Assembly: GCA_016196295.1 (NCBI GenBank)
Contig: JACPYA010000022.1
Span: forward strand, 1 to 33,864
DNA length: 33,864 nucleotides
Reading direction: 5' to 3'
Source of the DNA: Candidatus Peregrinibacteria bacterium
GTDB taxonomy: Bacteria > Patescibacteriota > Gracilibacteria > Peribacterales > Peribacteraceae
This document shows positions 7,656 to 24,737 of the stretch, in pieces. A model generated the notes under the pieces. That model saw only the letters and a program-made list of their open reading frames with translations, did not search any database and had not been told where the DNA came from. Both the position numbers and the translations under genes were made by a program. Within the stretch, counting starts at the first letter, position 1. The number at the start of each line of letters is the position of its first letter.

Positions 7656-7765
7656 ATTCGAAGAACCAAATCCGAAATTCGAAACAAATTCGAAGCACAA
7701 ATGTTTTACTATGCACAAATGTTTTACTATTGTTTCGGATTTCGAAATTCGAATTTCGTGCTTTT
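7656..7765. repeat. AT-rich FRIS-type imperfect palindrome with 18-bp tandem duplication
   Basis: AAATCCGAAATTCGAAACAAATTCGAAGCAC ... ATTGTTTCGGATTTCGAAATTCGAATTTCGTGCTT; GCACAAATGTTTTACTAT twice (7695-7712, 7713-7730). Confidence 0.75.
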
Positions 7766-8341
7766 CCCTGGCGGTTCGTAATGCGGGCTGGGATGCTCAT
7801 CGAGGGCTTTATTCACCAGCCGGTCCGCCCGGTGATTATCTTCCCGCGGAATGTGCTTGAAAACGATGTCCGGGAACTCCATCGCGAGTGCTTGGATCTG
7901 TTTGAAGAGAGGCTCAAGTGTGGCCATCTTCACCCGGTACTCTCCCGACAGCTGCTTTACGATCAGCTCCGAGTCCAGGTGACAGATAAGGCGGTTTGGC
8001 ATGTAGCGCTTCGCGATCTTCAGCCCCTCGATGAGCGCCCTGTACTCCGCGACGTTGTTCGTCTCGATGCCGATGCGCTCGTAGTGCTCTCGGATCACTT
8101 TCCCTTGGATGGGATCCTCCAAGATCGCCGCGATGGCCGCTTGACCGGGGTTGCCGCGCGAGCCTCCGTCCGTGAAGAGATGGAGCGTGCCTCCGATCGA
8201 CTCCGGGAGATCCTCCTCCTCGGCCCCCGTCGCCTGCTTAAGCGCTTGTGCGATCGCTTCCTCGACGAATGCGGAGCGCTCGTTTGGGTCGGGGAAGAAC
8301 TCCTTCAATTTTTTTTCGATCGAAGAGGGGAGACGGATCAT
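7727..8341 (-). CDS. RNase HI-family protein with short N-terminal helical extension
   Basis: LFTDGGSRGNPGQAAIAAIL ... NNVAEYRALIEGLKIA ... LDSELIVKQLSG ... HIPREDNHRADRLVNKALDEH. Start refined to MIRLPSS, with TACACT 6 nt upstream. Last ~12 aa and stop are encoded by a repeat. Confidence 0.88.
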   Translation of the reverse strand: MIRLPSSIEKKLKEFFPDPNERSAFVEEAIAQALKQATGAEEEDLPESIGGTLHLFTDGGSRGNPGQAAIAAILEDPIQGKVIREHYERIGIETNNVAEYRALIEGLKIAKRYMPNRLICHLDSELIVKQLSGEYRVKMATLEPLFKQIQALAMEFPDIVFKHIPREDNHRADRLVNKALDEHPSPHYEPPGKSTKFEFRNPKQ

Positions 8342-12207: not shown

Positions 12208-12258
12208 GGGTAGAGGTATGTTAGGGAAGGTTTACTAAAAAACAAGACCCGTAGAGAG

Positions 12259-12362
12259 AAATCCGAAATTCGAAGCACGAAATCCGAAACAAATGCTAAG
12301 CACGAATTCTTAAATATTTAAATTCGGCATTATTCGGATTTCGAATTTAGTGCTTCGTGCTT
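12259..12362. repeat. Second copy of FRIS-type imperfect palindrome
   Basis: AAATCCGAAATTCGAAGCACGAAATCCGAAACAAATGC ... TATTCGGATTTCGAATTTAGTGCTTCGTGCTT. Confidence 0.75.
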
Positions 12363-12385
12363 ATCAATTCGCTGATAACTGCCGC

Positions 12386-14344: not shown

Positions 14345-14390
14345 GGAGGTGAGTATAGGGCTTGGGCTAGGGTTAGGGCTAGGGAACGGA

Positions 14391-18650: not shown

Positions 18651-18899
18651 ATGTTCAAGAAGAAATCTCCCCATGTTGGCGCGTGCATGGCACTCCATGT
18701 CGTGGTTTCAGTTCTCCTCTTCGTCGCGGCCGTCGCGGCGATCCTCGGCGTCTACAAGGCGCACGTGCTCAGCACCGGACTCGCGTTCGGTACCACGAGC
18801 GGGTCGCTGGCGCTCGTCGCTCTCGCCATCGTCCTCCATACGTGGATGAAGCAGACGATCGCGTGCGTCACGAAGTGCGAGGCATGCGGCATTAAATAA
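18651..18899 (+). CDS. Small two-TM membrane protein
   Basis: MFKKKSPHVGACMALHVVVSVLLFVAAVAAILGVYKAH...; ends TAA at the left edge of a TIR element. Confidence 0.55.
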   Translation: MFKKKSPHVGACMALHVVVSVLLFVAAVAAILGVYKAHVLSTGLAFGTTSGSLALVALAIVLHTWMKQTIACVTKCEACGIK

Positions 18900-19073
18900 T
18901 ACGGCTACGCGATGAAAATACAGGCATGTTCTTTCTCCACGACTTATATATCGGCGTAGCGATACTTGTCCGGCGAAGTCCCGTCCCGCACATGCGGGAG
19001 GACGAAGCCGGATCGCTACGCCGCTATTGTGATGATCAAGTACGATCTTCACCGTTGCATTCGCGAAGCCGTA
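18900..19073. mobile_element. MITE-like TIR element, copy 1
   Basis: Ends TACGGCTACGCGA.../...TCGCGAAGCCGTA (one mismatch); flanked by TAA (18897-18899) and TAA (19074-19076); internal ~80-bp palindromic core 18945-19026. Confidence 0.75.
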
Positions 19074-19095
19074 TAAGGAACGATCATTCGAAGGG

Positions 19096-20446: not shown

Positions 20447-21376
20447 ATGAACATTTTCATTACCGGAGGTGCGGGTTTCATCGGTTCACACCTCACGCGT
20501 GCGCTCGTGAAGGGCGGCCATGCGGTGACGGTGCTCACGCGGAAGGAGTCCGATCTTTCTCGGATCGCGGACATCCAGAAGAAGGTCACGTTGGTCGTCT
20601 GCGACATCGCAGATCGCGAGGCTTTGGTGAAGATCGTCGAGCACGCAAAACCGAAGGGCATTTTCCACCTCGCGGCCTCCAACATTCAGGCGGGCAAGAC
20701 GGATGCCGTGGAGCAGCTGATGAGAAGCAACGTCCACGGGACGCAGAATCTGCTCGATGCGACGAACGATCTTCCCTACAAATTTTTCATGCAGACCGGG
20801 AGCTACTTGGAGTACGGCAAGCGATCGGACATCATCAAGGAGACGGACCGTGCAGAGCCTATGGAGATCTATGCGAAGACGAAGCTGGAAGCGACCCTTG
20901 CGACGCAGGCCCACGGCCGAACGCACAAGAAACCCACGGTTGTTTTCCGCATCTTCTCCCCGTACGGACCGAACATGCAGCAGGGCAGGCTCGTGCGCGA
21001 AGTGATTACGCGCGCATTGCGGGGGGATCCCATACGCCTCACGAAGCCGGAGATCGCCCGCGACTTCATCGAAGTCGGTGATATCGTGGCGCTCCTCTTG
21101 GCCGCAATGGAGAAAGCAAAAGATGTTGGCGGGGAAATCTTCAACCTTGGCAGTGGCAAGAGCACCTCGCTCGGTTCGTTCGTCGATCTCGTCCTCACAA
21201 AGACGGGCTCGAAGAGCGCTGTCGAGTGGGATGCCTTCCCTCCCGTGTTGTATGATACCGCGCACAGTCAGGCGGATATGCAAAAGACATTCTCGCATTT
21301 TGCTTGGCGACCCAAGACATCCCTGGAAGCAGGAGTGACGCGGATGATCGATTGGATTTCTTCTCTCCCCTCATGA
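20447..21376 (+). CDS. NAD-dependent nucleotide-sugar epimerase/dehydratase (extended SDR)
   Basis: ITGGAGFIGSHLTRALVKGGH Rossmann motif and YAKTK active-site motif. Confidence 0.9.
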   Translation: MNIFITGGAGFIGSHLTRALVKGGHAVTVLTRKESDLSRIADIQKKVTLVVCDIADREALVKIVEHAKPKGIFHLAASNIQAGKTDAVEQLMRSNVHGTQNLLDATNDLPYKFFMQTGSYLEYGKRSDIIKETDRAEPMEIYAKTKLEATLATQAHGRTHKKPTVVFRIFSPYGPNMQQGRLVREVITRALRGDPIRLTKPEIARDFIEVGDIVALLLAAMEKAKDVGGEIFNLGSGKSTSLGSFVDLVLTKTGSKSAVEWDAFPPVLYDTAHSQADMQKTFSHFAWRPKTSLEAGVTRMIDWISSLPS

Positions 21377-21555
21377 TACGGCTACGCGACACTGGCAGTT
21401 CCGTGGGTTGTAGTGGAACATTCGAGATAGCGGCGAAGCGATCCGGCTTCGTCCTCCCGCATGTGCGGGACGGGACTTCGCCGGACAGGTATCGCTACGC
21501 CGATATATGTATATTGAGAGCGAATAATTGTTACCTCTTTTTTTACGAAGCCGTA
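21377..21555. mobile_element. MITE-like TIR element, copy 2 (core inverted)
   Basis: Ends TACGGCTACG.../...CGAAGCCGTA; flanked by TGA (21374-21376) and TGA (21556-21558). Core 21427-21508 is nearly identical to the reverse complement of the copy 1 core. Confidence 0.75.
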
Positions 21556-22790
21556 TGACTCCCAAGAAAAATGCACTGCGAGTCGCGTATGCAGAGACCA
21601 TCTACGGCAAAGAAGAAGTGAAGGCCGTGATGGACGTGCTGAAAAATCCGCACCACATCGTCGCGGGACCGCAGGTGAAGGAATTTGAGAAGAAAGTCGC
21701 CGCCCTCTTCGGCAAGAAGCACGGCGTGATGGTGAACTCCGGCTCGTCTGCGAACTTGATCGGCCTCAGCGTGCTCGATCTCCCCAAGGGATCGGAGGTG
21801 ATCACCCCTGCGCTGACCTTCTCGACGACGCTCGCGCCTATCCTCCAGACAGGGCTGACACCGATATTTGTCGATGTGGAGCTTGGCACGTATCTCGTGA
21901 ACCCAAAGACCGTCGAGTCGCTCATCACCTCTCGCACGAGCGCACTCATGATCCCGTCGCTCCTCGGAAACATTCCCGACTTGAAGGCGCTGCGGCAGTT
22001 GGCAGACAAACATTCTCTGCGGCTCTTCGAAGATTCCTGTGACACGCTCGGCTCCCGCTTCGACGGAAAGCCGACCGGAACATTTTCAGATGTCAGCACC
22101 ACGAGTTTCTACGCCTCGCATATCATCACGGCGGCCGGCGGGGGAGGGATGGCGTGCTTCAATGATCCCGTGCTCGCGGAACGCGCGCTCGTGATGAGCT
22201 ACTGGGGAAGGCGATCGACCCTCTTCGGCGCGTACGAGAAATCGGAGGAGATCCAGAAGCGTTTCGCGGGGTTGCTGCAAGGAGAAGCCTACGATGCGAA
22301 GTTCATCTTCAGTGAAGTGGGCTACAACTTCCAGCCGACGGAGCTGATGGGAGCGTTCGGCCTTGCTCAATTGAAACGATTAAAGAACGTTGCCGCCAGA
22401 CGTAAGAAAAATTTCAAAGCGCTCCTCGCGTTTTTCAAGAACTATGAAGATGTGTTTGTTCTGCCGAAGGCTCATCCGGATGCCGATCCAAATTGGCTGG
22501 CTTTCCCGTTGATGCTTAAGGAGAGTGCACCGTTCGATCGCCTCGCACTGGCGCGTTACCTGGAAGAACGAAACATCCAGACGCGCCCCATCTTCACGGG
22601 CAACGTCCTCCGCCAACCGGCCTTTGCGTATCTGGGGAAAGACCGCGTCGCGCGCTTCCCGGCAACGGATACCATCATGCGGCGCGGACTGCTCATCGGC
22701 TGTCACCATGGCCTGACGGACCGGCATCTGCAGTACCTGCAGGACACCTTCGCGGAATTTTTGGGCAAGCGGGAAGTTACGAAGACATGA
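21555..22790 (+). CDS. DegT/DnrJ/EryC1-fold PLP protein, RfbH/ColD-like sugar 3-dehydrase
   Basis: Start refined to MTPKKNALRV. SFYASHIITAAGGGG has His at the usual Schiff-base Lys position (codon 22119-22121, residue 189), plus LLGNIPDL, EDSCDTLGSRFDGKPTGTFSD and DPNWLAFPL as in RfbH/ColD. Confidence 0.85.
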   Translation: MTPKKNALRVAYAETIYGKEEVKAVMDVLKNPHHIVAGPQVKEFEKKVAALFGKKHGVMVNSGSSANLIGLSVLDLPKGSEVITPALTFSTTLAPILQTGLTPIFVDVELGTYLVNPKTVESLITSRTSALMIPSLLGNIPDLKALRQLADKHSLRLFEDSCDTLGSRFDGKPTGTFSDVSTTSFYASHIITAAGGGGMACFNDPVLAERALVMSYWGRRSTLFGAYEKSEEIQKRFAGLLQGEAYDAKFIFSEVGYNFQPTELMGAFGLAQLKRLKNVAARRKKNFKALLAFFKNYEDVFVLPKAHPDADPNWLAFPLMLKESAPFDRLALARYLEERNIQTRPIFTGNVLRQPAFAYLGKDRVARFPATDTIMRRGLLIGCHHGLTDRHLQYLQDTFAEFLGKREVTKT

Positions 22791-23638: not shown

Positions 23639-24697
23639 ATGCCTTCCATGTCTCAGAAGACCATTCTCATCACGGGCGGCTGCGGCTTCATCGGTTCGCA
23701 GTGCGTGCGCCAGTTCTACCGCACGCATCCGGAATACGTCATCGTGAACTTGGATCTGCTGACGTATGCGGGGAACCTGGAAAATCTGAAGCTCGTGGAA
23801 GAGCAGGAAAGGGCGCTCCCCTCGGATCAGAAACGCTACATCTTCGTGAAGGGCAGCATCACCGACGAGGCACTGCTGCATACACTCTGCAAGCAGTACG
23901 ACTTTCGCATGATCATCAACTTCGCGGCGGAGACGCACGTCGATCGCAGCATCATCAGCATGAACGACTTCATCAGCACGAACATCGGCGGCGCGCGTTC
24001 GCTGATGGAGGCGGTCCGGGCGAATAAAGTCGATCGCTTCATCCACATTTCCACCGATGAGGTGTACGGATCGATCGCATACGGGACGGCATCGGAGCAA
24101 ACACCTCTCCATCCATCGAATCCATATTCATCGTCCAAGGCTGCGGCTGACTTGATCGTGCAATCATTCGTCACGACCCATAACGTCCCGGCCATCATCA
24201 TTCGCGGGTCCAACAACTACGGGACGTACCAGTATCCGGAGAAATTGATTCCTCTCGCGATCACGAACGTCATCGAGAAGCACAAAATTCCCGTGCATGG
24301 CGCGGGCGTGCATATCCGCAGCTGGCTGCATGTTGCGGACTTCTGCGATGCCATCGACCTCATCGCGCATCATGGCGCTGTCGGCAGTATCTACAATGTG
24401 TCTGCGGAGGAGCGGTCGAACATGTATGTGCTCCAACTTATCTGTGACAGCCTGGGCGTGAACCTGGAGGAGTACAAAGAACACGTGAGCGACAGACCCG
24501 GAGCCGACACCCGCTACGCGCCGGACTCCACGAAGCTCCGAGAAGAACTCGGATGGGTTCCGAAGAGGTCGCTCCAGAAGAATATGAAGGAGATCGTCGA
24601 TTGGTACATGAAAAACGAAGCGTGGTGGCGCGCCATCAAGACGAAGAAGGAATTCCAAGATCACTACCTGAAGCAGTCGAAAGGACAGTGGTATTAG
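23639..24697 (+). CDS. rfbB: dTDP-glucose 4,6-dehydratase-like
   Basis: ILITGGCGFIGSQCVRQF, FAAETHVDRSI, HISTDEVYG, NPYSSSKAAADLI, RGSNNYGTYQYPEKLIPL. Confidence 0.93.
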   Translation: MPSMSQKTILITGGCGFIGSQCVRQFYRTHPEYVIVNLDLLTYAGNLENLKLVEEQERALPSDQKRYIFVKGSITDEALLHTLCKQYDFRMIINFAAETHVDRSIISMNDFISTNIGGARSLMEAVRANKVDRFIHISTDEVYGSIAYGTASEQTPLHPSNPYSSSKAAADLIVQSFVTTHNVPAIIIRGSNNYGTYQYPEKLIPLAITNVIEKHKIPVHGAGVHIRSWLHVADFCDAIDLIAHHGAVGSIYNVSAEERSNMYVLQLICDSLGVNLEEYKEHVSDRPGADTRYAPDSTKLREELGWVPKRSLQKNMKEIVDWYMKNEAWWRAIKTKKEFQDHYLKQSKGQWY

Positions 24698-24737
24698 GGC
24701 TAGGGTTTGGGTTAGGGCTAGGATACGTTGGAATCTC

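Follow-up and report, generated by a model that had tools for sequence, protein, structure and literature searches.

We found that a 179-bp mobile element occupies the TGA of a former ATGA stop–start overlap in a Candidatus Peregrinibacteria genome, where it is flanked by a 3-bp TGA duplication and leaves the genes on both sides intact. The element very probably belongs to a new, non-autonomous MITE-like family that can land silently in ATGA overlaps by virtue of its T...A ends and T[G/C]A target. The whole stretch of DNA analysed (the window, 33,864 nucleotides) corresponds to contig C64 in a draft genome of 1.13 Mb, referred to below as the window genome.

At the window junction the element (copy 2, positions 21377–21555, forward strand) lies between an NAD-dependent epimerase/dehydratase gene (20447–21376, forward strand; PF01370, 2.7e-45) and an RfbH-like DegT/DnrJ/EryC1 aminotransferase gene (21555–22790, forward strand; PF01041, 3e-87). 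It reads TACGGCTACGCGA...TACGAAGCCGTA, with imperfect terminal inverted repeats (TIRs) at 21377–21390 (left, forward strand) and 21542–21555 (right, reverse strand) around a palindromic core (21427–21508, forward strand). The left TGA duplicate (21374–21376, forward strand) is the unchanged stop codon of the epimerase open reading frame, and the aminotransferase ATG (21555–21557) consists of the final A of the right TIR and the TG of the right TGA duplicate (21556–21558, forward strand). Removing the element and one TGA from the junction gives CCCCTCATGACTCCC, a 4-nt ATGA overlap; a longer version of the junction restored in this way in silico reads CTCATGACTCCC. Copy 2 also carries an alternative TTG start at 21528 in the aminotransferase frame, but ATG 21555 is taken as the start because the resulting MTPKK agrees with the MTPTRKEL start of the paralogue in the same genome. 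The gap from the epimerase stop to the aminotransferase start is now 178 nt, and copy 2 has a predicted folding energy of −70.8 kcal/mol (z = −2.8), with an outer stem that closes between UGA and AUG. These results confirm the initial annotation of the junction, which had described an insertion into a stop–start overlap that broke neither gene, a start codon assembled from the last TIR base and the duplicated TG, and a structured spacer of about 180 bp.

The initial annotation had further taken the ATGA overlap to be the ancestral state, which is supported by related gene pairs and by empty sites at three sister junctions. A second, paralogous epimerase–RfbH pair in the window genome (contig C66) reads GCATGACGCCG, a 4-nt ATGA overlap, and the aminotransferases of both loci begin MTP. 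The epimerase–RfbH pair of genome G073 also has an ATGA overlap, and the pairs of G084 and G015 overlap by ~26 nt. The epimerase and RfbH proteins of relatives are only ~26–37% identical to those of the window. Comparison of this junction among relatives thus yielded the ATGA in G073 but no exact orthologous empty site, the pairs compared being distant or paralogous; they support an ancestral ATGA and fall short of proving the exact empty site of the window.

As read from the sequences, the type of event proposed for the window is directly visible at three other overlaps that carry the element, each of which is empty in relatives. The pyrB–pyrC pair has an ATGA overlap in ~11 genomes of the family, and among the loci read only the window genome carries the element there. 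At atpF–atpH, more than 20 genomes have an overlap, either ATGA or GTGA, and only G020 carries the element. A membrane-protein gene pair overlaps by 4 nt in more than 20 of 29 loci; here both the window genome and G008 carry the element. In a maximum-likelihood tree the nearest relatives of these two genomes differ and are empty (G030 for one; G031/G061/G062/G063 for the other). This ATGA was therefore hit twice independently, and a shared ancestral insertion at the junction was rejected on the tree. The empty sites could also reflect precise excision in the relatives, a less simple explanation.

We collected 67 copies of 87–203 bp by sequence rather than by position, using blast, a pattern search and a sequence-only covariance model; 26 are from the window genome and 41 were sampled from other genera of the family. 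Matches were present in 31 of 74 family genomes, some of them to the core only. In a class-wide sample of 145 genomes, strict filters returned matches only in members of the host's family, and the element family is so far known solely from that bacterial family. Most copies consist of a 14-bp TIR, an arm, the palindromic core, a second arm and a second TIR, with variable arms of ~36 nt (usually 34–37). The TIR consensus is TACGGCTTCGCGAT, in which positions 1, 3–7, 10 and 11 are conserved at more than 90% (123 half-elements) and position 8 is often mismatched between the two TIRs of a copy; the inner palindrome is ATATCGGCGTAGCGAT with its complement. Mean identity between halves is 75% for the TIR and 81% for the core, and the arms are near random except in a few recent pairs. 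The nearly matching variable arms of these recent pairs show that it is the whole element that is copied. The copies most similar to one another are in genomes G080 and G022.

Across the family, TIR and core are kept far more than the arms. Copy 1 in the window (174 bp, 18900–19073, reverse strand), which has TAA duplicates at 18897–18899 and 19074–19076, has a core 98% identical to that of copy 2 across 82 nt and arms that cannot be aligned with it. A recent burst from a single master copy was rejected on the divergence of the arms, although a few recent pairs exist. Two inverted copies, L006 (G000:C79:16430) and L007 (G000:C79:12683), have swapped flanking triplets, TTA/TCC and TCC/TTA, as expected if the intervening 3.7 kb had inverted through recombination. 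Long copies in the window genome have a REP-like hairpin at their centre. REP-like, solitary versions of this core hairpin (CTTCGTCCTCCCGCATGTGCGGGACGGGACTTCGG and variants) that have no TIRs lie at L012, L015, L016, L019, L020, L021, L024, L025 and L028. L019 holds a TAGGGC run similar to telomere-like TAGGG-type repeats, two of which lie in the window at 14356–14388 and 24695–24727 and are 85% alike; further repeats of the CGAAATCCGAAATTCGAA type, inverted and direct, are found at 7659–7769 and 12250–12365.

An exact duplication of 3 bp, in the main TGA or TCA, flanks most of the 67 copies. Among the 56 copies with matching flanks, ~90% or more have a TNA target, again chiefly TGA or TCA, which defines the target as T[G/C]A (TSA) with no wider consensus. 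The element ends in T...A in 61 of 67 copies. Because the same ends are found in 50 of the 56 copies outside overlaps, the terminal A does not derive from selection for start codons; it characterises the element in general.

Stop–start overlaps of 4 nt are the exact location of eleven copies, five in the window genome (L001 at the window junction, L011, L146, L149 and L153) and six in relatives (L211, L240, L241, L246, L247 and L253). Two of these insertions, L153 and L240, went into a GTGA overlap and so converted the start from GTG to ATG. We compared these counts with usable sites, defined as TGA or TCA outside coding sequence. Overlaps account for 5 of 26 copies against 9 of 961 usable sites in the window genome (Fisher p = 1.4e-5) and for 6 of 41 copies against 16 of 1,414 sites in the relatives (Fisher p = 1.8e-5). 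Stop codons of any kind were duplicated by 30 of 67 copies, compared with ~6% of usable TSA sites (12/26 versus 62/961 in the window genome and 18/41 versus 78/1,414 in the relatives; all p < 2e-5). The excess over usable sites is ~13–20-fold for overlaps and ~7–8-fold for stop codons, values that are approximate as the background was built on genes predicted with a simple, home-made hexamer gene finder (~83% coding in the window).

These features account for how an insertion can be silent. The element inserts into T[G/C]A and duplicates the target 3 bp. When the TGA that it hits belongs to an ATGA or GTGA overlap, the left copy of that TGA remains the upstream stop codon, and the final A of the element with the right TG provides an ATG for the downstream gene, keeping both proteins intact. 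Copies would then persist at stop codons and stop–start overlaps because insertion there costs almost no coding sequence, and we infer that this low cost, rather than active targeting, underlies their persistence. A DDE-type transposase would be the probable mover. The spacer of ~86–178 nt would weaken any translational coupling, and loss of coupling across the insert is likely. The element acts like a MITE and has the defining features tested (TIRs, a fixed 3-bp duplication, short length, multiple copies and empty sites in relatives), apart from an identified parent. No PF01609 match was present in the window genome, the DDE genes of relatives were without matching repeats, and a parent transposase with matching ends was not found at PF01609 and PF01797 loci. 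Rfam covariance models gave no match over the element at E ≤ 1.

The excess at stops could be read more strongly, as transposition machinery that favours stop codons or stop–start overlaps beyond mere survival there. The stop-codon count and the double hit on a single ATGA would fit such targeting, but the target consensus is only TSA and selection against insertion into promoters or terminators could give an equal excess; we consider targeting possible, though doubtful. Stop codons are enriched even relative to intergenic sites, an excess that pure harmlessness may not explain. A family specialised for overlaps goes further and is improbable: here the machinery would recognise overlaps, the T...A ends and TSA target would rebuild the codons, and the UGA–AUG stem would bridge or tune coupling where there is no Shine–Dalgarno signal. 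Such a signal was not found before predicted starts in 11 sampled stretches (199 kb) of the window genome (13/157 compared with 22/157 in the control), so coupling may matter in this genome, and the predicted outer stem closing between UGA and AUG may bridge it. We hold it equally improbable that the element is a maintained regulatory RNA, its hairpin keeping stop and start adjacent and so preserving reinitiation, or acting as an RNA-processing site. The exact closure of the stem between UGA and AUG, the much greater likeness of TIR and core than of arms, strong folds in several copies (z −4 to −11) and starts that, without a Shine–Dalgarno signal, could depend on neighbouring termination are all consistent with this role. 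However, the predicted fold of the atpF–atpH copy of G020 is no stronger than those of shuffled sequences (z −0.6), the TIR pair is often mismatched at position 8 and many copies lie elsewhere than between same-strand genes.

Two other modes of mobility were weighed against the 3-bp TSA duplication. The lone core hairpins and nine Y1_Tnp hits in the window genome would suit a REP/BIME-type repeat mobilised by a REP-associated Y1 transposase, which is very unlikely in view of the TIRs and 3-bp duplication of the elements and of the short copies in relatives, in which the REP-like hairpin is missing; REP hairpins, if involved, may only have invaded the core. An IS630/Tc1-mariner-type insertion with TA duplication (TA/CGGCT...AGCCG/TA) would imply the original site ATGATATGACT, in which the 4-nt overlap is absent. 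The ends of many copies do read TA...TA, and TA duplications are common in many bacterial MITEs (PMC2229807). Yet most copies have a 3-bp direct repeat outside the TA (including CAA, CTT and TGG), CA or TG often stands in place of the TA, and the empty sites in relatives are ATGA rather than ATGATATGA, which contradicts TA duplication and makes this origin extremely unlikely.

The preferred reading, a MITE-like element with silent landing sites, can be set beside known systems. Some elements of the IS5/PIF-Harbinger group duplicate a 3-bp TNA. The family described here shares the duplication length and the TNA-like target, but no IS5-type DDE transposase was found on these ends (PF01609 and relatives' DDE loci), and we do not claim membership of that group. 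Like the bacterial MITEs Correia/NEMIS, RUP, ERIC and MITEAba12 (PMC10969869), the element is shorter than ~200 bp and gene-less, with TIRs, a target duplication, multiple copies and strong hairpins. Its own features are the 3-bp TSA duplication, the palindromic core between hypervariable arms and repeated seamless insertion into stop–start overlaps, and no parent was found for it at the transposase loci searched. The Chunjie MITE of Geobacter uraniireducens (178–235 bp; PMC10969869) is described there, citing Chen et al. 2008, as inserted in an operon whose structure is undisturbed; as cited, its insertion resembles ours in being neutral to the operon. REP/BIME repeats with RAYT transposases (PMC2817692, PMC3733652) likewise have a hairpin core, and Y1 transposases are present here, but the element has TIRs and a target duplication and REP/BIME repeats have neither. 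Rickettsia palindromic elements (PMC10969869) are also palindromic, ~150 bp and tolerated by genes, but often lie in frame inside genes, whereas the elements here lie at gene borders. A TIGR array has alternating 8–12-nt repeats and ~9-nt spacers in tandem units with a tas gene (PMC12045711); a CRISPR- or TIGR-like array was rejected on the single units, ~36-nt arms and flanking duplication. The words 'stop codon' and 'start codon' occur nowhere in the text of the prokaryotic MITE review (PMC10969869), and literature searches that paired MITEs with Patescibacteria, Peribacteria or ATGA coupling gave nothing relevant.

A mobile element can thus enter compact operons without coding cost, through a simple match of its terminal base and target site to the commonest type of gene overlap. 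Junctions of this kind can be misread by annotation pipelines that extend starts or overlook the inserts. Where the same two genes occur both with an insert and without one, atpF–atpH and pyrB–pyrC included, they form natural experiments on translational coupling.
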